From the NCBI GenBank assembly GCA_902781455.1, contig CACZJF010000013.1, forward strand, positions 1 to 60,844: 60,844 nt of DNA, in the 5' to 3' direction. Each line of letters begins with the position of its first letter. Position 1 is the stretch's first letter. Below are positions 102 to 19,095 of the stretch, piece by piece. This DNA is from an uncultured Lachnospiraceae bacterium. Its GTDB lineage: Bacteria > Bacillota > Clostridia > Lachnospirales > Lachnospiraceae. The notes under the pieces were generated by a model. That model ran no database searches. It worked only from the letters and a program-made list of their open reading frames with translations, and was not told the DNA's origin. A program made the translations under genes and the position numbers.

Positions 102-1178
102 TCACTGGGCAAGCTGTCCTGTCGCAGGATCAATCTCATTCCAGTAAGCGTCCACCACATTTCCGTTCTCATTCACATAGCAGCCGTCAATCGGGTTGCC
201 ATAGCTGTCAACAACCTGACCGTCTGATACATGCGCGTCATAGCGCAGCGTCCCGCTTGAATCGAAAACCATGAACGGGGTTGAAGTGTTCTGCGGCTCT
301 TCCTCCTGGGCCGTATCATCCGGCGCTTCTGCCTCCGCGCTCCCGTCTTCCGCCGTGGCCTGTCCTTCGGCCCCTTCACCGGCCAGGGAGTCTTGCTGAC
401 TCTGGTTCTGGTCCTGCTCTGATCCGGTCTCTCCCTCCTGGGATTCTGTCTCCGGCGTCTGGTCCGCGGAATCCGCCTTGAAGGTAATCGCCTCATTCCT
501 GCCGGTGAATCCCTCCATGTTGAGGGTTCCCTCCTCCCCTTCCACCTGCGGATAGATGGAAACCAGGTTGGCGATCTTCTCCTCCAGATACTCGTCCTGT
601 CCCAGCAGGACCGTAACCGGACCAAGTCTTAAAACCATGTTCTGGCTGGCATCAAAGGTAACACTGTCCGGAATCAGCTCGCTTTTGATCAGAAGCTGCG
701 TGATGTTCAGCATCGTGCGCAGCAGGGAGCCGTTCTTGGTCACCATCCTCTGGTAAAGCTGCGGCGGCTCGATTTCGACGCCTGTCACCAGTGGGATCCC
801 CGCATAGATCGTATCGGTAATCTCCTGGACAACGCCGTCCGGATCATAATAGACATTGCTGTTCTCATACTGTACGCGGCCGACCAGCTGCCCCTCTTTC
901 ACGATAATTCTGACCGAAGCAGGAGAGAGCATGACAGCCTGGACGCTTTTCAGGTAAGGGGCATCCGCGGCAGGCTGCTCAGAGCGGTATTTCCACGAGA
1001 AATAGAGCGTATTACGCGTCTTGAAATCATAGATCAGGTCATCCCTGATCTGTTCCGCGGAATAGCGCTCATTTCCTCTGACATCAATCGACCGGATCTG
1101 AAAGACCCCGAGTACGATCGCGGCTGCCGCTCCCAGTACACCGACGAGAATCGCAATCGCTCTGATTCCTCTGCTCAT
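102..1178 (-). CDS. ftsQ: FtsQ/DivIB-type cell division protein with extra C-terminal tail
   Basis: Membrane-anchored divisome protein of the FtsQ/DivIB family, which links FtsL and the FtsB-like partner to septal peptidoglycan synthesis outside the membrane. A short cytoplasmic start precedes one membrane segment (about residues 6-27). A POTRA domain beginning with IRSIDVRGNERYSAEQI and the FtsQ beta domain follow (to about 230). An acidic, Gln/Glu-rich linker (about 238-300) leads to a tail at 302-358 containing FDSSGTLRYDAHVSDGQVVD and a YGNPIDGC turn. The protein is 358 residues, about 90 more than typical DivIB, and the tail explains the excess. A related tail is on the transpeptidase at 3835-6120. 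It is the last dcw gene in the window, separated from murD by a palindrome-rich gap. The ribosome binding site is weak, so the exact start is less sure than the identity. Confidence 0.88.
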   Translation of the reverse strand: MSRGIRAIAILVGVLGAAAAIVLGVFQIRSIDVRGNERYSAEQIRDDLIYDFKTRNTLYFSWKYRSEQPAADAPYLKSVQAVMLSPASVRIIVKEGQLVGRVQYENSNVYYDPDGVVQEITDTIYAGIPLVTGVEIEPPQLYQRMVTKNGSLLRTMLNITQLLIKSELIPDSVTFDASQNMVLRLGPVTVLLGQDEYLEEKIANLVSIYPQVEGEEGTLNMEGFTGRNEAITFKADSADQTPETESQEGETGSEQDQNQSQQDSLAGEGAEGQATAEDGSAEAEAPDDTAQEEEPQNTSTPFMVFDSSGTLRYDAHVSDGQVVDSYGNPIDGCYVNENGNVVDAYWNEIDPATGQLAQ

Positions 1179-1195
1179 ACCACACCCATGTTATG

Positions 1196-1360
1196 ATGCA
1201 CGGATCGCTCCGTTGCTTCGCAACTCTCGCGCTCCTCGGCCACTCCGCACTCTCGTAATTTGCTCAGGCAAATTACTGCGTGCTCCGTGTCCGGTGGGTC
1301 AACACCCCTTTCGCCTTTGGCAAGCAAGCTTGCCTCGGCTTCAGGGCTTTTGACCCTTAC
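1196..1360. repeat. Palindrome-rich intergenic element between murD and ftsQ
   Basis: The 213-base gap holds nested inverted repeats: gttgc/gcaac (1212-1224), gtaatttgc/gcaaattac with loop tcag (1255-1276), ggcaagc/gcttgcc (1319-1334) and long-range gggtcaa/ttgaccc (1296-1302 with 1350-1356). No convincing gene or clean T-tract terminator is present. The structure resembles dispersed REP-like intergenic elements; a second copy was not found in the window. It sits where ftsW and murG would often be. Confidence 0.5.
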
Positions 1361-1391
1361 ATCATGTTATCTGAAAGATGATTTTCCTTGC

Positions 1392-2822
1392 CTACAGTTC
1401 ATGAACCAGGTGCTTAAACACACGGCCTCTTTCCTCATAGTCCTTGAACATGCCCCAGCTTGCGCAGGCAGGGGACAGAAGCACCGCGTCACCCGGCGCT
1501 GCCATACTGACACAAGTTTCAAAGCATTCTTCAAATGTATCACACAGCCGCACATTTTCAAATCCGTGCTGCTTCGCGCACTGCGCGATTTTCTCTTTGG
1601 TCGCGCCCACCAGAACCAGTGCTTTCACCTTCCCATGGAAGCTCTCAATCCACGCGTCGTAGGAAGAATCCTTGTCATATCCTCCCCCGATCAGAACGGT
1701 CGGCCGCTTCATGGCCTCTACCGCCTTGATGGCAGCGTCCGGGTTCGTGCCCTTGGAATCGTTGTAATACTGTACGCCGTCAACCTCCGCGACGAATTCA
1801 ATCCGGTGCTCCACGCCGGAAAATGCTTTCAGCACCTCCCGGATCTGTTCCATCGGCATATGCACCGCGATTGCGCTGAGGCAGGCAGCGCTGACATTTT
1901 CATAATTATGGACGCCGAGAATTTTCAGCTCGTCCGTATGAATCACTTCCTGCACGGTTTCGCCGTCTGTATACTTCAGGATTCCATCCTCCAGGTACAT
2001 CCCGAAGTCGACAGGACGCCTGCCGGAGAACCATACGACGCGGGGGCCGTCCGACGGAATCTGCCTGCCGAACGCTCTCAGTACCTCATCTTCATAATTC
2101 AGGATGAGCACATCGTCTCTGGTCTGCCGTTCCGCGATCCGTTCCTTCACCCGGATGTATTCCTCCATCGTGTGATGGCGGTTCAGATGATCCGGCGTGA
2201 TATTCGTGATAACACTCACATGCGGATGAAATGACTGCGTGGTCTCCAGCTGGAAGGAACTGATCTCCGCGACGCAGACACTGCTGTCGGTCGTGGAAGC
2301 GGCGATGCCGGTATAAGGAATCCCGATATTGCCGACGACATGTACACGCTCCTCCCCCAGGAAATGCTTCATCAGTTCTCCAAGCAGGGTGACCGTCGTT
2401 GTCTTCCCGTTTGTTCCTGTAACGGCCAGGACTTCTCCTTTTGACAGGCAGTACGCAAGCTCCACCTCACCCCAGATGGGAACGCCTGCCGCCCTGATCC
2501 TGTTGACCGGTTCAATGTCCACGGGAACGCCCGGGCTGATCACACACAGACTGCATGCTTCAATCAGCGCGTCGTCCAGCGCTCCGGTCACGATCCGGAT
2601 TCCGGCGATCTCCTGCAGTCTGTCTGCAAGCTGTTTCCCGTCGTCCGGAAAGCAGAAGCCCTGCGCAGCGTCCTGAAACTGCTTCCGGACAGACGCCTCC
2701 TCCAGGGATTCATTTCCATCATAGAGCACCGGACAGGCGCCGCTTCCCAGAAGAAGAAGGCTTGCGGCCACACCGCTCCTGCCCGCGCCGAATACCAGTA
2801 CCTGTTTCCCCTTCAGATCCAT
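1392..2822 (-). CDS. murD: UDP-N-acetylmuramoyl-L-alanine--D-glutamate ligase
   Basis: Cytoplasmic Mur ligase that adds D-glutamate to UDP-MurNAc-L-alanine using ATP, the second amino-acid step of peptidoglycan precursor synthesis. The N-terminal Rossmann domain begins with VLVFGAGRSGVAA, where the UDP substrate binds. The central ATPase domain has the P-loop GTNGKTTT followed by ITPDHLNRH. The C-terminal domain has HRIEFV and the NDSKGTNPDA segment typical of MurD. The length of 476 is normal. AAAGGAG lies about 10 bases before the ATG. It sits 41 bases downstream of mraY in the same leftward operon. Function is confident from family motifs. Confidence 0.97.
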   Translation of the reverse strand: MDLKGKQVLVFGAGRSGVAASLLLLGSGACPVLYDGNESLEEASVRKQFQDAAQGFCFPDDGKQLADRLQEIAGIRIVTGALDDALIEACSLCVISPGVPVDIEPVNRIRAAGVPIWGEVELAYCLSKGEVLAVTGTNGKTTTVTLLGELMKHFLGEERVHVVGNIGIPYTGIAASTTDSSVCVAEISSFQLETTQSFHPHVSVITNITPDHLNRHHTMEEYIRVKERIAERQTRDDVLILNYEDEVLRAFGRQIPSDGPRVVWFSGRRPVDFGMYLEDGILKYTDGETVQEVIHTDELKILGVHNYENVSAACLSAIAVHMPMEQIREVLKAFSGVEHRIEFVAEVDGVQYYNDSKGTNPDAAIKAVEAMKRPTVLIGGGYDKDSSYDAWIESFHGKVKALVLVGATKEKIAQCAKQHGFENVRLCDTFEECFETCVSMAAPGDAVLLSPACASWGMFKDYEERGRVFKHLVHEL

Positions 2823-2863
2823 TCCGTTTTCTCTCCTTTGTCAAACCATGTTTTTGATCCGGC

Positions 2864-3835
2864 TCATTCAAAGCGGATCAGCGCCGCCAGGCACAGAAGC
2901 ACGGTAATGATCGTAAACACCGCGACGATTCTGGTCTCCGACCAGCCGCCAAGCTCAAAATGATGATGGATCGGCGCCATGCGGAAGATGCGCTTGCCGC
3001 CTGTCTTCTTAAAATAGGTCACCTGAATGATCACGGAAAGGACTTCAACCAGATAGATCAGGCCCACAATCGCGATGAACACCGGCATCTGCAGTACATA
3101 TGCCGCGCCGGCGACAAATCCGCCCAGAGCCAGGGATCCCGTGTCTCCCATGAAGACCTTCGCAGGATGCACATTGAACAGCAGAAATCCCATGAGCGCG
3201 CCGCAGACCGCTGCGCAGACAGGCTCAATGCCGCCGCCTGTCACCAGGGAAACATAGCAGAAAAAGGCTGCCGTGACAGCGGTGACAGAAGCGGCCAGAC
3301 CGTCCAGGCCGTCCGTAAAGTTCACGCCGTTCACGGTTCCGATGATGATGACGAAGGCTGCAATACTGGCAAAGATCCGGAAGGCAAACCCGGAAAGGAC
3401 CACTCCCTGTGAGAAAGGAATCCTCCAGTCAAGACAGGCCGGATCCCTCAGCCATGCATAGAGCAGAAAGATCAGCGTCACGACAATCTGGCCCGCCATC
3501 TTCTGTTTTGGCATCAGTCCGTCGGACCGTCTCAGGACAACCTTCAGATAGTCGTCCACAAAACCGATGATGCCGAAGCCGAGCGTCAGCACCAGTACCG
3601 GAAGAATTCTCGGATAGCGCGCCGCGAAGACAAGAGAAACAATCAGGACCGAAACAAGGATCGCAATCCCGCCCATGGTCGGTGTCCCTGCTTTCTTCAG
3701 GTGCGCCTGGACGCCTTCCTTCCGCTCTGTCTGCCCCACCTTCAGCCGGATCAGAAACGGAATCAGGAACGGAAGGATCAGCGCGGCTATTCCAAAAGAC
3801 AGAAATACAGCAGCCAGCGTATCTACAGTAATCAT
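2864..3835 (-). CDS. mraY: Phospho-N-acetylmuramoyl-pentapeptide transferase
   Basis: Polytopic membrane enzyme that moves phospho-MurNAc-pentapeptide from UDP to undecaprenyl phosphate, making lipid I. About ten membrane segments are visible. Signature features are the GTPTMGG segment near residue 52, the FVDDYLK motif, the NFTDGLDGLA motif with catalytic-site aspartates, and the HHHFE cluster near the C-terminus. The ATG at 3835 overlaps the upstream transpeptidase stop as TGATG and has GGAGG seven bases ahead. A GTG one codon earlier is possible but spaced worse. Translational coupling to the transpeptidase is likely. 323 residues is normal for the family. Confidence 0.97.
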   Translation of the reverse strand: MITVDTLAAVFLSFGIAALILPFLIPFLIRLKVGQTERKEGVQAHLKKAGTPTMGGIAILVSVLIVSLVFAARYPRILPVLVLTLGFGIIGFVDDYLKVVLRRSDGLMPKQKMAGQIVVTLIFLLYAWLRDPACLDWRIPFSQGVVLSGFAFRIFASIAAFVIIIGTVNGVNFTDGLDGLAASVTAVTAAFFCYVSLVTGGGIEPVCAAVCGALMGFLLFNVHPAKVFMGDTGSLALGGFVAGAAYVLQMPVFIAIVGLIYLVEVLSVIIQVTYFKKTGGKRIFRMAPIHHHFELGGWSETRIVAVFTIITVLLCLAALIRFE

Positions 3836-6120
3836 CACACGTCCTCCTCTTCTTCCTCATCCCCGGACGAAGCGCCGGTCCATGTTGTATCGTCCTGCCC
3901 GTCTCCCTCCACCGCTTCCGGAGGAGCTGCTATGTCGGGATTGTCCGCTGTCGGATCGATGTCCTCGTCAAGCAAAGCGCTGACGTCCACCTCAATCTCA
4001 TTGCCGTAGCCGTCTGTCACAATCCCCTTCTCCAGATCCGCGGTGCAGCCCTCAATGACATTGCCGGAAGCATCGATCACTTCCCCGTCTTTATTGATGG
4101 CGGCATCGTTGTACAGAATCCCTGAGGAATCAAAGCACTGGAAGGTTGCACTCTTCACCTCATTCTTCACGGTTTCATCAATGGTGATACCAAGGTACTG
4201 AAGCAGATCGTCCGTGACCGGCTCCGTCGGATAGATGCCCATATAAGGAAACAGTTCCGTCGCGATCTGCCGGAACAGAACCTGCGGATAGGTCGAGTCT
4301 GCCTGTTCCGCGACATTCGGTTCGTCAATGACGACATACAGGACAACCTTCGGATCATCGATGGGCGCCGCCCCGATAAAGGAGACCACATAATGGCCCT
4401 TCCATCTGGTTCCGTCACTCGGGTCAATCTTTTCAGCCGTTCCCGTCTTTCCGCCGGTCCGGTAGCCCGGAACCTGCGACTTGCGTCCGGTACCCTCCCG
4501 AACCGCTGTATTCAGATATCTTCTGACCAGCTTCGACACGGAGGTGGAAACCGGCTGCCGCAGAAGAAGCGGCTCCACCGTCTCAACAGAGGTTCCGTCC
4601 GCGCTCAGGATCTGCCCGACCACATGAGGCTGGTAATAATAACCGCCGTTGACCACCGCGCTGAACGCGGAAGCTTCCTGCACCATATTGATGGTGAAGC
4701 CCTGTCCGAAGGTACACGTAGCCAGCTCAACCTCATGCATCGTCTCCCGGTTGTAGACGACGCCCGCGTTCTCATTCGGCAGATCAATCCCGGTCGGGCT
4801 GCCGAAGCCGAACGCCTGCTGATAATTGATAAAGTTCGTGATTCCCATCTGCATGCCGATGGTCATAAGCGCGACGTTGCAGGAGTTGACGATGGCATAC
4901 TCGAGCGTCTCTTCCCCATGGCCGTAGATGTTGTCGCACTTGATGGTCGTATCCGTGATAAACAGAGAACCGTTGCAGACATAGCTGTCACCGTCATGAA
5001 CCGAGCCGGTCTCCAGCGCGGATGCAACCGTGATCGGCTTGAACACCGAACCGGGTTCGTAGCCTTCTGACACGCAGAAGTTCTCCCACTTCGTGTTCAG
5101 CTCATTGACATAGGTCTTGTCGTCCATGGACTTGATCTCGGCACCGGAATATCCCTCCGTCGTCAGGTCTGACGGATCGTTCAGGTTATATTCCCTGTTG
5201 GTCGCCATGCCAAGGATCTCGCCGGTATTCGGATCCATCGCGATCACGCCGACATTCTTCGCGCCTTTTCCGTTGTGCTGTTCGTCGCCATAGGTCTTGT
5301 CGAACGCGTCAATCTTCTCCTGCAGGATCTCCTGGATGTTCATGTCCAACGTCAGGCGCAGGGTTTTGCCATGCTCCGGTTCGATGGTGGTCCGCTCAAA
5401 CTCGGAATTGTCATTCAGGTATCCGAATTCCCTTCCTGCCGTTCCGTTCAGGAGGTCATTGTAGTAATTCTCGACACCGGTTGTTCCGACGTCAATCGCG
5501 TTCGAGAAGCCGACAACCTTGCTTGCGAGCGCATCGTACGGATAAGTCCGGATATACTTCTCCTCAAACCACACGCCCTGGATGTCCGCGCGCTCATTCA
5601 TCGCTTCATAGTAGGCGTCCCGTCCCAGATCCTTCATATCCAGGTCCGCCCCTCTTGCGTAGCGCTCAAACTCCTTCTTGACGTCCGCGGTGATGTTCTT
5701 CTCAATCACCTGGTAGCGGGATTCACTTGTCTTTTCCGAAAGGATCACGTCCCGGCTCTTCTGCTGATCGATTCCGATGATCTTCTCCAGCGCGTCGACG
5801 GTCGGTTCCAGATAATCCTCGTTCTGATTGACTGCCCAGCAGTCCAGCACAACATTGTAATAGCGGTCGCTCCTTGCCAGAATAATCGAATTCCTGTCCT
5901 GGATCTCCCCTCTTCTGGCCGGGATCGAGCGGGAATCATATGACTGCTGGGAGAGCACCTTCTTCGCGTACCGGTTCCCGCGGGTCGCGGAGATCGCCGC
6001 GATTCTGACCAGAAGAGCAACCAGTAATAACAAAACAAATGCAAAAGAAGCCAGAAGCTTTTTTTGCATCATTTTGGTAAACCGTCTTTCTTTTTTTGTT
6101 TTCCTGCCGCGCTGAGTCAA
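3835..6120 (-). CDS. Class B penicillin-binding protein (FtsI/SpoVD type) with non-PASTA tail
   Basis: Septal or sporulation peptidoglycan transpeptidase. Residues 1-20 are basic and cytoplasmic, about 21-43 span the membrane, the dimerisation domain runs to about 260, and the transpeptidase domain to about 625. Active-site motifs are intact: SVFK with nucleophile S358, SCN at 413-415 and KTG at 558-560. SpoVD/PBP2x relatives often end in PASTA domains. Here the end is instead a roughly 50-residue tail (660-711, FDSSGILYNDAAINKDGEVID and onward) homologous to the end of FtsQ, then an acidic Asp/Glu-rich terminus. The apparent start is TTG, with GGGGG nine bases upstream; an internal ATG pair near 6072 is the alternative. 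Whether this is the vegetative FtsI or the sporulation SpoVD paralogue cannot be told from this window. Confidence 0.93.
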   Translation of the reverse strand: MTQRGRKTKKERRFTKMMQKKLLASFAFVLLLLVALLVRIAAISATRGNRYAKKVLSQQSYDSRSIPARRGEIQDRNSIILARSDRYYNVVLDCWAVNQNEDYLEPTVDALEKIIGIDQQKSRDVILSEKTSESRYQVIEKNITADVKKEFERYARGADLDMKDLGRDAYYEAMNERADIQGVWFEEKYIRTYPYDALASKVVGFSNAIDVGTTGVENYYNDLLNGTAGREFGYLNDNSEFERTTIEPEHGKTLRLTLDMNIQEILQEKIDAFDKTYGDEQHNGKGAKNVGVIAMDPNTGEILGMATNREYNLNDPSDLTTEGYSGAEIKSMDDKTYVNELNTKWENFCVSEGYEPGSVFKPITVASALETGSVHDGDSYVCNGSLFITDTTIKCDNIYGHGEETLEYAIVNSCNVALMTIGMQMGITNFINYQQAFGFGSPTGIDLPNENAGVVYNRETMHEVELATCTFGQGFTINMVQEASAFSAVVNGGYYYQPHVVGQILSADGTSVETVEPLLLRQPVSTSVSKLVRRYLNTAVREGTGRKSQVPGYRTGGKTGTAEKIDPSDGTRWKGHYVVSFIGAAPIDDPKVVLYVVIDEPNVAEQADSTYPQVLFRQIATELFPYMGIYPTEPVTDDLLQYLGITIDETVKNEVKSATFQCFDSSGILYNDAAINKDGEVIDASGNVIEGCTADLEKGIVTDGYGNEIEVDVSALLDEDIDPTADNPDIAAPPEAVEGDGQDDTTWTGASSGDEEEEEDV

Positions 6121-8769: not shown

Positions 8770-10755
8770 TCAGTCAGGAATGTCTGTCATGATATCCAGC
8801 TGGAATCCATTCCACATGTTCGCGTTCACATTCCAGTCCCGAAGGTCTGTCACGATACGGTGGTAGAATGCCTGGCCTCCGTATACGATATCATAGGTGC
8901 GGGCGTCTCCCCTGGCCTCCAGATGACGTCCGAAGGAGCAGTTCTTGACATCTTCTTCCCCGTAATCGTCCTGTGTGCCTCCCGGCCAGTAGATATAGAA
9001 GCGCGGGACCTGAGGCTCACTGGAAAAGCGTACATCTCCTGCCAGTTCCAGGATCTTTCTTCCCGTCGGCTCATAGCAGCACAGGACATGGGCATAGCGC
9101 CACACGGTTCTGGTAAAATCCGACACCCTGAACTGCCGCAGCCAGTCCTCGTTCATCATTCCCTTTCCGTCTTCCTTTGAAATGATCAGGACGATCGGAA
9201 ACTGACGCTCCTGGTCCAGGATCGCGCGCGCGACCGTCTGCGCCTCTTCCTCCCGCACGATTCTTCTTCTCCCGGAGCAGGGAAGCGCGCTGAAGATGCC
9301 GAGATTGTCCACAATATTCTTGTAGAATCCGGGATAGGAGAAATAGGTCGACTGCTGTTCCACAGTCACGGAATCCTCCCGCTCCGGCTGCGCGTACCCG
9401 TTCAGCACTTTCAGCCACAGGCCTGCCGTCGCGCCGCCCGCTTCCTCTTTCTGTTCATAGACTGAGGCTTCGGAATACCAGATCCTTCCTCCGACCTCCG
9501 GATCCATATGACGGACATGCATGTTCATGACATGGTCTTCCGGACGGTATTTCACCGTCACGTGATAGGCCAGCAGATCCGCATGGAATGTCTGCACCTC
9601 CTGCGGCATATTGTGGAAGAGCACCCCGTACTTCGCCTGAACCCATTTCCAGATCATCTTCGTACACTGGGAAAAGAGTTCGTCCACAGAGGGCGGCTCT
9701 GAGGCCGTCTTCAGACGGCTTCCGTCCAGACGAGTCTTCATCTGGAAGGCCACATGCCTTCTCAGAGGCCGGAGCTCATAGTGCCTGTTTTCCGTCTCGG
9801 AATCTTCCCTTCCGTCGTTGAAAACATCCATTCTGCGGAATACTTCCGTCAGCCGGTCATCATGAAACACGCTCTCGTTGAGAAGCGCGATGATCGTATT
9901 CACATTGATCGGCACATGACGCGTTCTCGACAGAAGCTGGCCGATCAGGATCGGCCTTGGGGTCCGGAAGATCTGCTTTGCCAGGTTGTCCGAACGGATC
10001 ATATCCTCATTCAGAATCTGCTCTACCTCCGGATACAGGGACGCTTCTCCGAGTTTCAGCCTGAAATGGCTCTTCAGCATGTCGCTCCAGCGCCCTGACT
10101 TGTACAGGGCATGTCCAAGGTCCTCAAACAGCGTGACCATGGATTTGTCGCACAGCTCAAGCGTTGCCAGGATCGAGTTGAAGTAGCGGGAGAATCCGGG
10201 ATAATGGCTCCACAGTTCCTCTCCTTTGTATCTCATATCATGCTCGACTTCGTGCCAGCCTTCGAAGAACATCGTCTTGATCTGTATCTCGAAGGTGTCA
10301 TCGATGCACATATCCCAGGTCTGCGGAGAGATCTCCGACTTCAGGTAGCCCGGAAGGCGGAATACGCCGTTGAGCTTGGCCGGCTTGAATTCATCTTCGC
10401 TGCGCTTGGACGTTGACCACTCTATAACATCAAATGTCTGTGCCATGATGTTCCGGCAGATATCCACATCATCGTCAAAATACAGGTTGATGCGAACGCC
10501 GATCAGATCCTGCAGCTTATGCTCTTCACTGAGATCCTTCAGCTCAAACTTCCGCGCCATGGACTGCGCGGTCTTTGTTCTGGAGAAACACCGGTAGTAA
10601 AGTCCGCACTGCTCCAGCCGGTCGCTGACAATACGCCTGAGGTCCTGTTCTACCAGCGGAGGAACCTTGACCGCCGCTGCCAGCTGCTCTTTCGTATAGG
10701 AGGCAGAAATCACCTCTTCCTGCGTGCCCTCTTTGTTCATGGTATAGCTGTCCAT
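8770..10755 (-). CDS. RelA/SpoT-domain protein with long uncharacterised C-terminus
   Basis: Predicted (p)ppGpp synthetase-type nucleotidyltransferase. The RelA/SpoT domain covers about residues 35-185. Residues expected in active synthetases are present: R59/K61/K69 in SRTKTAQSMARK, D83 and R88 in DLIGVRI, E157 and Q159 in FEIQIKT, and the WHEVEHDMRYK closing motif. There is no HD hydrolase domain and no TGS/ACT, so it is not the bifunctional Rel. At 661 residues it is far longer than small alarmone synthetases of about 210-260. The remaining ~470 residues are not a family I can name. They include a helical middle and an alpha/beta segment with FPIVLIISKEDGKG, YAHVLCCYEPTG and FYIYWPGG. It is 19 bases downstream of the TPR gene and probably in one operon. 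Product and trigger are unknown. Confidence 0.75.
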   Translation of the reverse strand: MDSYTMNKEGTQEEVISASYTKEQLAAAVKVPPLVEQDLRRIVSDRLEQCGLYYRCFSRTKTAQSMARKFELKDLSEEHKLQDLIGVRINLYFDDDVDICRNIMAQTFDVIEWSTSKRSEDEFKPAKLNGVFRLPGYLKSEISPQTWDMCIDDTFEIQIKTMFFEGWHEVEHDMRYKGEELWSHYPGFSRYFNSILATLELCDKSMVTLFEDLGHALYKSGRWSDMLKSHFRLKLGEASLYPEVEQILNEDMIRSDNLAKQIFRTPRPILIGQLLSRTRHVPINVNTIIALLNESVFHDDRLTEVFRRMDVFNDGREDSETENRHYELRPLRRHVAFQMKTRLDGSRLKTASEPPSVDELFSQCTKMIWKWVQAKYGVLFHNMPQEVQTFHADLLAYHVTVKYRPEDHVMNMHVRHMDPEVGGRIWYSEASVYEQKEEAGGATAGLWLKVLNGYAQPEREDSVTVEQQSTYFSYPGFYKNIVDNLGIFSALPCSGRRRIVREEEAQTVARAILDQERQFPIVLIISKEDGKGMMNEDWLRQFRVSDFTRTVWRYAHVLCCYEPTGRKILELAGDVRFSSEPQVPRFYIYWPGGTQDDYGEEDVKNCSFGRHLEARGDARTYDIVYGGQAFYHRIVTDLRDWNVNANMWNGFQLDIMTDIPD

Positions 10756-10774: not shown

Positions 10775-12496
10775 TTATTGATACACTGGATTCCCGTACA
10801 TATCATATCCCTGCCCGGTTGCCGGATCGGTCCACGCGATCTGCGCGGAAGAGGAACCGGACTGCGTGGAGTAAACCGGATTTCCGTACATATCGTACCC
10901 CTGTCCTGTCGTCGGATCGGTCCATGCGACAGCGTTCGAGCTCTGGCCGGTGCCGGAATACACTTCAATGTCATTCTGCGCGGAAGCGTTGCTGCTTCCC
11001 GCCTCAGACGTTCCGGACATGTTGTCCATGGAGGCCGCTCCCTGTGAACCGGACGTGTCAACCGATGAGGTCTGTCCGCCTGTCATGTATGGTGCCACGA
11101 TGGAAGCAGAATCCGGATACTTATCCGAGAACTTCTGGAATACCTCATTCGCCTTAGCCGAGTCTCCGGCGTTCATGTAGGCGAATCCAAGATAATACAG
11201 CGCGTCATAGTAGCGTTCACTCTCACCGCTCTCATCAGAGTCAATCGCCATCTGGAGCTGCTTCGCCGCTTCCTTGTAGTCCGCGGCGACATAGGCCGAG
11301 GTTCCTGCGTTATAGTACTGGTTGAACAGCGCGTCGCCCACCATCGCGGTCAGATCGTCGAACAGCTGCCTGCCCTCCGAGTCAAAATCGTCCGCGTTCA
11401 GTTCTCCCAGTGCCTCCACCGTCTTGGTCTGATCTCCCTTAACATAAAGATCCGCAACCTTCAGAAGCTCCGTGTAAGAATCGACACGGTCATTCGCACT
11501 CTGCGCTTCCTTCCTGGCCGTATCCGTATCCGCGTTCGCGGTATCCACCGCGTCCTCCAGATCCTGGACAGTCGCAGTGATGGTCGCCAGCGAGGTGTTC
11601 GCGTCTGACACCTGTTTGTTCGCCTTGTCATTTGCACCCTGGCGGATCGCCGGCACAGTCAGAAACCAGACAATGGCCGCTCCCAGCAGGATGCCGAGCA
11701 TGATGTTGATAAAGGTCGCCACAGTGGAGCTGTCCCGGAAGGTTGTCGGAGCAATGACGACGTCATTGCCGCTGACGTAGCGCAGCGCGATCTCGCGCGG
11801 TTCCTCCCTGGGTTCATCCTCTTTAAGAGGTGCCGAGCGCTCTACCTTCGGCCGGGTCCGCCGTCCGAACAAAGACGTCTTTCCCGTTGTCTCCTCCACA
11901 TGTGTGAGATAACGCAGTGTTGTCGTATTGGTATTGTCAATCCGGGCAGCCTTTTTCAGAAGAGAGCGTGCCTTCTCCCACTGCTCGGTACGCATGTATT
12001 CCAGCGCGAGCAGCTGGCAGGCCCTGACAAACTTCGGATTCTGGCTGACCACCTTCCGAAGCTGCATCTGTGCCAGATCTTCATTGCCCTGCTTCAGATA
12101 GGTCAGGCTCTGATTATACTTTCGGATGGCCGTATTATACTGATCCAGCCGCGTTTTTGAGTTTTGAAGCGCCTTGATGTAGGAGGCGGCAAGGTTCTTC
12201 CTGCCGTTCATGTTATTGCTGATGACCCACTCCACGAGCGCGCTGACAACCTCGCCCGTCTCAAAGTAGCACAGTCCCAGCAGGTTCCGCGCGTCGGTGT
12301 TTTCCTTGTTGAACTTCAGGGACCGCTGCAGACAGGAAATCGCCCCGGACAGATCCCTGACCTGGGCTTTCTCGAGTCCCTGGTTATACAAAAGATTCGA
12401 GATCCGGATAATCCGTCTGGGCAAAGTCAGATCCGCCCCGCAGATCCGGCAGTATTCTTCTGTTTGCGAAACCGCTCCGCAGTAGATGCATTTCAT
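10775..12496 (-). CDS. Zinc-ribbon, TPR and single-TM protein with duplicated C-terminal motif
   Basis: Membrane protein of unknown function. A zinc ribbon (C3, C6, C16, C19) opens the chain. Cytoplasmic TPR-like helices follow (about 36-205), then one membrane helix (about 261-283). Outside are a coiled-coil region (about 290-345), a second TPR block (about 375-475) and a Ser/Gly/Asn-rich linker. Two copies of AWTDPxTGQGYDMYGNPVY end it (523-542 and 553-572). The paired DNA repeats are at 10871-10930 and 10781-10840. The tail is reminiscent of, but less similar than, the tails on FtsQ and the division PBP. GAGG lies ahead of the ATG. The layout suggests a scaffold joining cytoplasm to cell wall, but no partner is proven. 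Confidence 0.7.
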   Translation of the reverse strand: MKCIYCGAVSQTEEYCRICGADLTLPRRIIRISNLLYNQGLEKAQVRDLSGAISCLQRSLKFNKENTDARNLLGLCYFETGEVVSALVEWVISNNMNGRKNLAASYIKALQNSKTRLDQYNTAIRKYNQSLTYLKQGNEDLAQMQLRKVVSQNPKFVRACQLLALEYMRTEQWEKARSLLKKAARIDNTNTTTLRYLTHVEETTGKTSLFGRRTRPKVERSAPLKEDEPREEPREIALRYVSGNDVVIAPTTFRDSSTVATFINIMLGILLGAAIVWFLTVPAIRQGANDKANKQVSDANTSLATITATVQDLEDAVDTANADTDTARKEAQSANDRVDSYTELLKVADLYVKGDQTKTVEALGELNADDFDSEGRQLFDDLTAMVGDALFNQYYNAGTSAYVAADYKEAAKQLQMAIDSDESGESERYYDALYYLGFAYMNAGDSAKANEVFQKFSDKYPDSASIVAPYMTGGQTSSVDTSGSQGAASMDNMSGTSEAGSSNASAQNDIEVYSGTGQSSNAVAWTDPTTGQGYDMYGNPVYSTQSGSSSAQIAWTDPATGQGYDMYGNPVYQ

Positions 12497-16752: not shown

Positions 16753-19095
16753 TTACGAAAGCTCCACCATGACATAATTCTCATTGGATTCCTTGTAGGC
16801 ACCGTCCCCGTCTGGCCTGATGTAGAATACCTTAACCCTGTCTCCCTTTCCGAAGGCGGAAAGTGCCTCCTTGAGCTGCTCAACGGTCGCGACGCTCTCG
16901 TCATTGATCTTTGTGATCAGGTCACCGGACACAAGGCCGGCTGCCTGCGCGCCGGAGCCGGTCATCACTTCAGCTACGACCACTCCATCCGGAATGCGGT
17001 AGATGATCTGATTCTCCTTTGAGAATTCGCCGACCTGTATGCCAAGCTGTCCCGGTTCCTTCCCGGCCGCATCCTGCTCCGCTTCCGTCGCAGCTTCGAT
17101 CGTCTCTTCCTTCTGATCCTTCGGCTGCGCTTCGCTCTGACTGGTTTCTTCCTGTCTCTCCTGTGTCAGCGCCTCGGTCTGATTCTCGTCGTCCGATTCT
17201 GGTGTTTCGCTTTCTTCCTGCGCCAGCGCCAGAGTCAGAGGTTCTTTCTCCTTCTTCTCTTCTGTCTCCTTTTCACTGTTGGTCTCTTCCTCAGCCGCGG
17301 CAGGCGCTTCCTTCTCTTCTCCCAGGATCCGGCTGACAGCCGCTTTCGCATCATTGGAAGGGAACGCGAATCCAATCCCCTCAGCAGACTCTTCCGTGCT
17401 CTTCCCGGCGTTGATTCCGATCACCTCGCCTGCGTCGTTCAGCAGGGCGCCTCCGTAGTTTCCGTAATTGATGGAAGCATCTGTCTGAATCATTTCATGA
17501 ACCGCCGTTCCGTATTTCACCGGTCTGTGCACTGCTGATATGATCCCCCGCGTGACGGAAAGGCCTCTTCCCATCGCGTTGCCGATGGCAAAGACATTGT
17601 CCCCCGGCCTGAGCTGGTCAGAATCGCCCAGTGTCGCAGTCTGAACCAGAGAAAGAACCGTTTCATTCACCTGGTCAGCCGGCACCCGGATAACCGCCAG
17701 CAGGCTGTCTTCATCGATCCCCATCATCTCGGCCTGTGCGATGGTATCTTCCGTATCCAGCTGGCCGGAGGCTTCCATCTTAACGCTGAATCCGACCGTT
17801 ACCTCCTGCGCGCCGGCCACAATGACGCCATCTGTCACAATATACAGGTAATCCTCGTCCCGGCCGATGATGATCCCGCTTCCGGCTTCCGTCTGCAGAA
17901 TCTCCTGTTCTCCGCTGAAGAAATCCCAGACCTTCTGAACACCTGCGGCGGTGACGGATACGACCTCCGGCATTGCCTCCTCTACCAGATCCGATACATC
18001 CAAAGACGCGCTGACCGTGATCCCGTCAGTGGAGAACTTCGGGCCTTCTGGCACTGTCCCGGCTGCAGCTTCCTCCTCTGTTTCCGTTTCCGTTTCGATT
18101 TCGGTTTCTGTCCCGGTTTCAGCCCTAAGTGGTTTCAGCACAGGTTCCGCGACGGAAGATACAGCTTCACTTTCGCGCTCTGTCTGTGCGGCCTCTGTGC
18201 CCTCCGGTTCCGTCTGTGCCGCGGCTGTCTTTTCCGACTCTGTCTCCTGTGCGGCAATGGCAAGCGTCAGCTCTGTCTCAACAGGTTCTTTCTGCTGCAC
18301 GTCATTGTCGGACGGAAGGGCACCCGGCTTCACGGAATAGATAAACGCGCCGATCGCCAGTACGCTCACCGCGAATGTCAGGAACATGGCAGGAAGTTTC
18401 TTCTTCGGCTTATCCAGTCTCTCTCCGGTCTGGGTGTCAAACTTCGGTTCGTCGTCATCGAAGTCGTGCGCTGTCCCGAACCCCGGGCCGTCAGGGCCTG
18501 CCGGGCCGCCCGGGCCGCCCATGCTCTCCGGCATCGGGGCGGAAGCCTCCGTGAAACTGTCCTCTCCCGGCGTCTGGCCGGATTCAGGCGTGGGAATCTC
18601 TTCCCCCGGTTCCTGTCCAAAATCAGGCGCAGGAATCTCCTCCCCAGGCTCCTGACCAAAATCAGACGCAGGGATCTCCTCCCCAGGCGCCTGGCCAAAA
18701 TCAGGCGCAGGGATCTCCTCCCCAGGCTCCTGACTAAAATCAGGCGCAGGGATCTCCTCCCCAGGCGCCTGACTAAAATCAGGCGCGGGAATCTCCTCTC
18801 CCGGCTCCTGACCAGATTCAGGCGCAGGAATCTCCTCTCCCGGCTCCTGACTGAAATCAGGCGCAGAAAGATCTTCTGCAGGCATCGCCCCGTCCGGGTT
18901 TCCGGAACCGGAAGGCTCCGGTGCGTCCGGCGAAAATGTGCTTTCCGGATGCATCTCATCCTGCACCGGATCCGGGATCAGGTCTGACTCACTGTCAGCA
19001 TTTCTCGGCACACCGTACCCGGCATCCTCCGCGCCGGCAAATTCATCCGGATCAGCATTCAATATATTCTTTTCAAACGGATTCCACTTTGCCAT
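16753..19095 (-). CDS. HtrA/DegP-like PDZ protein lacking the catalytic triad
   Basis: Membrane-anchored HtrA-family protein that appears to be a pseudoprotease. The cytoplasmic N-terminus contains 13-residue repeats (78-179). One membrane helix is at about 234-254, then a Glu/Thr-rich linker. A trypsin-like domain (about 365-595), a second low-complexity linker and a PDZ domain (about 683-775) follow. Aligned by eye with active HtrA, IVTNNHV reads IVTDGVI so His is V424; the aspartate position in DLAV is L465; and GNSGG reads GNYGG so Ser is Y547. The surrounding fold motifs (GSGIIIG, DSDQLRPGDNVFAIGNAMG, IQTDASIN, GEVIGINAG) are well kept, so this is not decay. A binding, chaperone or sensor role is inferred. 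Confidence 0.85.
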   Translation of the reverse strand: MAKWNPFEKNILNADPDEFAGAEDAGYGVPRNADSESDLIPDPVQDEMHPESTFSPDAPEPSGSGNPDGAMPAEDLSAPDFSQEPGEEIPAPESGQEPGEEIPAPDFSQAPGEEIPAPDFSQEPGEEIPAPDFGQAPGEEIPASDFGQEPGEEIPAPDFGQEPGEEIPTPESGQTPGEDSFTEASAPMPESMGGPGGPAGPDGPGFGTAHDFDDDEPKFDTQTGERLDKPKKKLPAMFLTFAVSVLAIGAFIYSVKPGALPSDNDVQQKEPVETELTLAIAAQETESEKTAAAQTEPEGTEAAQTERESEAVSSVAEPVLKPLRAETGTETEIETETETEEEAAAGTVPEGPKFSTDGITVSASLDVSDLVEEAMPEVVSVTAAGVQKVWDFFSGEQEILQTEAGSGIIIGRDEDYLYIVTDGVIVAGAQEVTVGFSVKMEASGQLDTEDTIAQAEMMGIDEDSLLAVIRVPADQVNETVLSLVQTATLGDSDQLRPGDNVFAIGNAMGRGLSVTRGIISAVHRPVKYGTAVHEMIQTDASINYGNYGGALLNDAGEVIGINAGKSTEESAEGIGFAFPSNDAKAAVSRILGEEKEAPAAAEEETNSEKETEEKKEKEPLTLALAQEESETPESDDENQTEALTQERQEETSQSEAQPKDQKEETIEAATEAEQDAAGKEPGQLGIQVGEFSKENQIIYRIPDGVVVAEVMTGSGAQAAGLVSGDLITKINDESVATVEQLKEALSAFGKGDRVKVFYIRPDGDGAYKESNENYVMVELS
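18559..18864 (-). repeat. 39-base in-frame tandem repeat in the HtrA-like gene
   Basis: Seven full units and one partial unit of 13 codons encode variants of APDFSQEPGEEIP. Units differ mainly at D/E, S/G and E/A positions. The repeat encodes a Pro/Glu-rich cytoplasmic arm. Copy number is likely to vary between strains. Confidence 0.9.

Follow-up and report, generated by a model that had tools for sequence, protein, structure and literature searches.

Results

Organization of the dcw locus

The window, the whole stretch of 60,844 nucleotides analysed here, belongs to a Lachnospiraceae assembly of 2.39 Mb in 65 contigs that is 81% complete. Its minus strand carries a dcw cluster with mraZ, rsmH, ftsL, a gene for an FtsI-type PBP, mraY, murD and ftsQ. 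Pfam scans covered FtsQ, the PBP, the FtsL-like protein and the pair of genes that lie upstream of mraZ; the remaining genes were named by sequence reading. FtsQ scored 23.5 bits against FtsQ_DivIB_C (cut-off 21) and 20.6 bits against POTRA_1, just below the cut-off of 23; judged by this domain, the near-cut-off POTRA and the dcw location, the protein is an FtsQ/DivIB. The FtsL-like protein reached 19.5 bits against Pfam DivIC, below the cut-off.

Table 1 Features of the window that bear on the FtsQ and PBP tails
Feature	Position	Strand	Remarks
FtsQ/DivIB, 358 aa	102..1178	-	last dcw gene inside the window; adjoins murD
FtsQ tail module, residues 299-358	105..284	-	conserved block 123-275
FtsQ linker, ~residues 235-298	285..476	-	acidic, low complexity, hypervariable
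FtsI-type class B PBP, 761 aa	3835..6120	-	Transpeptidase and PBP_dimer
PBP tail module, residues 660-710	3991..4143	-	shortly after the transpeptidase domain
PBP end beyond the module	3838..3990	-	conserved ADNPDIAxPP...TTWxG; mean pairwise identity 0.41
TPR protein, 573 aa	10775..12496	-	Pfam TPR families; terminal units 10778-10936

The PBP, whose length is counted from the TTG start picked in ORF calling, matched Transpeptidase (226 bits) and PBP_dimer (52.5 bits), both above the cut-off, which makes it FtsI-type class B. No other PBP was found in the dcw cluster of the assembly, which is 81% complete; PBP_dimer occurs twice in the genome, the second copy on a different contig. Against the SpoVD equivalog (TIGR02214) the protein scored 430 bits, below the curated cut-off of 688; this cut-off was passed by none of the 60 family genomes and may therefore be too strict here.

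In the window, murD leads directly to ftsQ (1179-1391) and the PBP gene is followed by mraY, whereas in G183, G193 and G069 (loci L203, L204 and L223) a SpoVD-type PBP comes after the tailed PBP and murD is separated from ftsQ by extra genes, which in G183 and G193 look FtsW-like and MurA-like by eye. The window's genome has three FTSW_RODA_SPOVE matches, all on other contigs. Between mraZ and the TPR gene lies the gene of a 661-aa RelA_SpoT-domain protein (8770-10755, minus strand); such a gene is found at the cluster in 15 of the 19 genus genomes. An HtrA-like protease (by eye; 16753-19095, minus strand) carries about eight tandem PAPDFGQEPGEEI-type repeats at its N-terminal side, before the membrane segment.

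FtsQ and the PBP end in homologous tails

An earlier note, made from the letters of this DNA, had aligned the two tails by eye and taken them for homologous. BLASTP agreed on both points, with 27 of 54 positions identical (50%) between FtsQ 299-350 and PBP 657-710 (48.9 bits, E 2e-10); the shared FDSSG starts at residue 305 in FtsQ and at residue 663 in the PBP. The local score of tail against tail was 119, and the best of 5000 shuffles reached 49. Consistently, the profile of 17 FtsQ tails from the genus matched that of 18 PBP tails with 99.3% probability (E 2e-20), so the similarity is significant at the profile level as well. An all-against-all comparison of the 459 ORFs of the window (stop to stop, at least 60 aa) yielded 13 pairs at E ≤ 1e-4. 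We read the other 12 as relatives among ABC transporters, as glycosyltransferases or as reading frames lying opposite genes of these kinds; FtsQ with the PBP is thus the single pair whose similarity is confined to a tail. On these alignments, FtsQ and the PBP each carry a copy of a small unnamed module, about 55 residues long, and within its own assembly the full module occurs on these two proteins only.

Both proteins were readable in 54 of the 60 family genomes; left out were the window's genome, four genomes where FtsQ was not matched and one whose PBP is cut. FtsQ ended fewer than 30 residues past the BLAST match to the core of the window's FtsQ in 48 of these 54 Lachnospiraceae of other genera, and extended at least 30 residues past it only in G028, G063, G068, G069, G070 and G094. 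The window's FtsQ is thus longer than usual, as had been noted. The accompanying remark that the PBP tail stands where PASTA domains often lie was a fair one, with no PASTA match listed for the whole PBP by Pfam at E up to 5. The placement of both tails on the outer side of the membrane finds support in the topology of the two families, from which the tails would be extracytoplasmic and part of the same complex.

The module is predicted to fold and is conserved

AlphaFold2, run on the FtsQ tail with an alignment of 54 tails, returned a confident small all-beta domain (pLDDT 96.3, pTM 0.82). Comparison of this fold with known structures, including the PDB, gave no clear match. Among the 54 tails, no Pfam match to PASTA, SPOR or CW_binding was listed at E up to 1, a range in which HMMER filters remove most matches above E 0.1. 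Of the weak signals, DUF3659 came first, with a weak match in 48 of the 54 tails (best E 4.4e-5); for the FtsQ tail of the window it scored 17.6 bits, below the gathering score of 24.8. Ig-like families came next: Big_1 matched 12 of 54 tails (best E 0.00048) and CarboxypepD_reg 16 of 54 (best E 0.0021), both weakly. DUF3659, which is mostly fungal, presumably has a DG-x-V-x-D-xx-GN pattern similar to that of the module; the likeness in sequence is weak.

The tail is the most conserved part of FtsQ. Mean pairwise identity among 30 FtsQ sequences was 0.77 in the tail, 0.57 in FtsQ_C, 0.55 in POTRA and 0.22 in the linker, and the ratio of median dN to median dS was 0.05 in the tail, 0.08 in the core and 0.40 in the linker. 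By these measures the FtsQ tail is under strong purifying selection. In the PBP (25 sequences), identity was 0.74 in the transpeptidase domain, 0.58 in the dimer domain and 0.52 in the tail, and the corresponding ratios were 0.04, 0.07 and 0.06. All these ratios are rough, since they rest on 18 FtsQ pairs and 10 PBP pairs and overall dS reaches 1.2. With an identity of 0.52 against 0.77, the tail of the PBP is the faster-evolving of the two, so that constraint on them is unequal.

Paired tails mark one clade

The tails are present in close relatives, so neither refuting outcome named in the earlier note, insignificant profile similarity or absence from such relatives, was observed. An FtsQ-tail query gave a strong match in all 19 same-genus genomes, the window's own included; outside the genus, 42 relatives yielded no match at E ≤ 0.05, the best value being 0.077. 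Within the genus the tail was found on FtsQ in 17 of 19 genomes and on the PBP in 18 of 19. The contig of G014 stops within the tail-coding part of ftsQ; G016 (72% complete) has no FtsQ match, and its PBP contig stops about 2.5 kb beyond the PBP gene; G011 (75% complete) has no PBP tail match, and its ftsQ lies on a contig of 3485 bases. A search of 397 Lachnospiraceae genomes returned 11 with a match at E ≤ 0.01. Six were strong (G000, G006, G018, G183, G193 and G267), each with both proteins tailed and none with one only, the FtsQ tail of G267 being cut by a contig end. The other five were weak (E 0.0016-0.0079), and BLAST labelled neither FtsQ nor a PBP at their best-matching loci.

We further compared 29 named loci, titled Lachnospiraceae, Clostridia, Clostridiales or Porcincola, which were picked for the FtsQ tail and all show it. 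The locus extends to the PBP gene in 24 of the 29, and a profile built solely from the 17 FtsQ tails of the genus found the PBP tail at the right place in all 24 (E 1e-14 to 2.2e-5), or in 25 of 25 counting the PBP of the window. At least 17 of the 29 loci are on contigs equal in length to contigs of genomes already counted, so the counts overlap; given this overlap, the selection by FtsQ tail and the single carrier clade, the co-occurrence may rest on one evolutionary event.

A quick tree of 84 PBP cores, rooted at the midpoint, placed the module carriers in a single group (28 rows, SH-aLRT 98), to which G069 attaches (29 rows, SH-aLRT 99). Adjoining them were G068, G028, G100, G070 and genus g287, 35 rows together (SH-aLRT 99). 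The carriers are, by this tree, one clade of Lachnospiraceae from gut and rumen that includes Porcincola; cells of Porcincola intestinalis are Gram-positive coccobacilli arranged in pairs and chains (PMC7738495).

Looser repeat tails occur nearby. Read by eye, FtsQ of G069 (L223) has the C-terminus TDENGNIITDGYGYIDPYTGS and the PBP of this genome carries terminal TDEYGNVISSG repeats; in two g287 genomes (L250 and L251; G704 and G706, a third, G304, being left out) the terminal repeats are of the DxxGN type on the PBP and of the YDExGNY type on FtsQ. These ends differ in sequence from the window's module, and profile searches gave no confirmation that they belong to it: the g287 PBPs alone reached a score (E 0.0003 and 0.0057), G069 lies at E 35-41, and the g287 FtsQ tails are not listed. 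Extending the carrier label to G069 and g287 needs two changes on the tree. Acidic PBP tails are common, and PBP C-termini with at least two DPxTG units occur in five of the 54 genomes of other genera with no matching FtsQ tail; such tandem ends are seen on FtsI-type PBPs at L196, L198, L199, L201 and L208. With FtsQ short in 48 of 54 and DPxTG ends on the PBP alone, repeat tails are commoner on the PBP and the FtsQ copy is the rarer addition; the module may have been copied from the PBP to FtsQ.

By eye, no tail is present on the SpoVD-type PBP that neighbours the tailed one in G183, G193, G069, G706 and G704. The module thus goes with the division pair, in keeping with the earlier view that the module is confined to the two division partners.

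The TPR protein of the window may be a third carrier. By eye it has a zinc-ribbon start, a membrane segment and a coiled coil, and it ends in two WTDPxTGQGYDMYGNPVY units; across the genus it ends in one to four WTDPxTGQxYDxYGN units. All 19 genomes of the genus contain matches to this type of unit, whereas none of the 42 others does at E ≤ 0.1. When 21 units from nine genomes were combined into a profile, FtsQ ranked second after the TPR protein among the 459 ORFs (E 0.0011), the remaining ORFs scoring E 1.5 or worse, which is a weak hint of a third carrier. We take the outer part of the protein to resemble a coiled coil plus TPR, as in CpoB.

Discussion

How FtsQ (DivIB) switches on the FtsW–FtsI synthase is still debated, and in Gram-positive bacteria the gamma tail of DivIB and the PASTA C-termini of PBPs are a suspected contact. 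For S. aureus, excerpts of published work describe a structure prediction in which the DivIB beta and gamma domains meet the PASTA domains of PBP1 (PMC10994846), a lowering of the PBP1–DivIB and PBP1–FtsW two-hybrid signals by PASTA truncation (PMC9426605), and a gamma domain suggested to be necessary for activity and localisation (PMC11988411). A B. subtilis paper cited in PMC9426605 states in its title that the PBP2B PASTA domains strengthen the DivIB interaction. This work makes contact between the two C-termini plausible. The FtsQ tail, like the gamma domain, sits at the extracytoplasmic C-terminus of FtsQ/DivIB, and differs from it in being predicted to fold, highly conserved, held at the end of a tether and homologous to the PBP tail. 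The PBP tail occupies the same place as the PASTA domains of PBP1, PBP2x and PBP2B, after the transpeptidase domain; in contrast to them it has no PASTA match listed, and its module is also present on FtsQ.

The earlier note had proposed a common binding target or a septal localisation tag; direct pairing of the tails is added here as a rival. We give about an even chance to the reading that the tails are a paired docking module, one that joins FtsQ and the PBP at the septum by way of a common ligand or of each other. The positions of the tails, at those of gamma and PASTA, and the restriction of the module to the division pair favour such a role. The module would have been duplicated inside the dcw operon and both copies kept since. 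The FtsQ copy would hang on its long, presumably disordered tether, and the PBP copy would stand shortly after the catalytic domain, at the PASTA position of other Firmicutes. Docking would then join the activator FtsQ to the synthase PBP at the septum, take over the role of the DivIB gamma/PASTA contact and possibly affect synthase activity. It may proceed through a common extracytoplasmic ligand, either septal wall or a protein, or through binding of tail to tail; we lean slightly towards the shared ligand.

Alternatively, each tail may bind septal peptidoglycan or a secondary wall polymer independently, in the manner of SPOR or PASTA domains, with the two proteins unlinked. We consider this possible but rather unlikely. 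In its favour, DivIB binds peptidoglycan and PASTA domains bind the cell wall in S. aureus, according to excerpts of PMC11988411 and PMC9426605, respectively; the five weak genomic matches include a choline-binding-type WYY repeat protein in G258, C-LytA appears among the insignificant Foldseek rows (E 2.4), and similar units terminate the TPR protein encoded close to the cluster. It is opposed by the lack of any wall-binding family among the 21 Pfam families listed for the tails, by the absence of the choline-binding WYY pattern from the tails (one W in FtsQ, none in the PBP), and by the restriction of the full module to FtsQ and the PBP in its own assembly.

It is less probable still, in our view, that the module is self-associating and was duplicated into a heterodimer that ties FtsQ directly to the PBP. 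The same module on two known partners, the consistent co-occurrence of their tails and the match of tail positions to the predicted gamma/PASTA contact would fit such pairing. Several observations weigh against it. Tail distances showed no extra co-divergence beyond the cores (partial r -0.13, a value equalled or exceeded in 919 of 999 permutations; 25 genomes), and own-genome tail pairs were no more alike than cross pairs (0.461 versus 0.462; 24 loci), which speaks mildly against tight pairing. In addition, the tails are unequally conserved and carry like charges, both being acidic (net charge -8 and -9). These same points, together with PBP repeats that have no FtsQ tail and the possibly single origin of the co-occurrence, also count against paired docking.

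A bolder form, which we regard as improbable, would make the duplicated self-associating module a zipper: FtsQ and FtsI would be held, on a long tether, as a paralogous heterodimer, and septal wall synthesis would be gated in this way, with the GN-type repeats of g287 and G069 as further versions. Finally, the DPxTG ends and the common acidic tails of PBPs could suggest a largely passive extension, a PBP repeat C-terminus copied to FtsQ with little function, but the strong purifying selection on the FtsQ tail, its identity across the clade (0.77 against 0.22 in the linker) and the confident fold prediction make this very unlikely.

To our knowledge, SPOR is not found on both FtsQ and FtsI. SPOR is reportedly likewise a septal module common to several division proteins (PMC6895207, PMC7642682); the present tails differ in having no SPOR match listed (54 tails, E ≤ 1). 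Among the titles and abstract openings listed for open-licence PMC papers on FtsQ/DivIB and PASTA, none describes the module, and no such paper was found for DUF3659 or for a C-terminal extension of FtsQ.

Whether paired docking acts through a ligand or through the tails themselves, a clade with the same small, predicted well-folded module on both partners offers a clean handle on the FtsQ–PBP contact: one can produce the module by itself, delete it from one partner or the other, exchange the copies, and look for the ligand.
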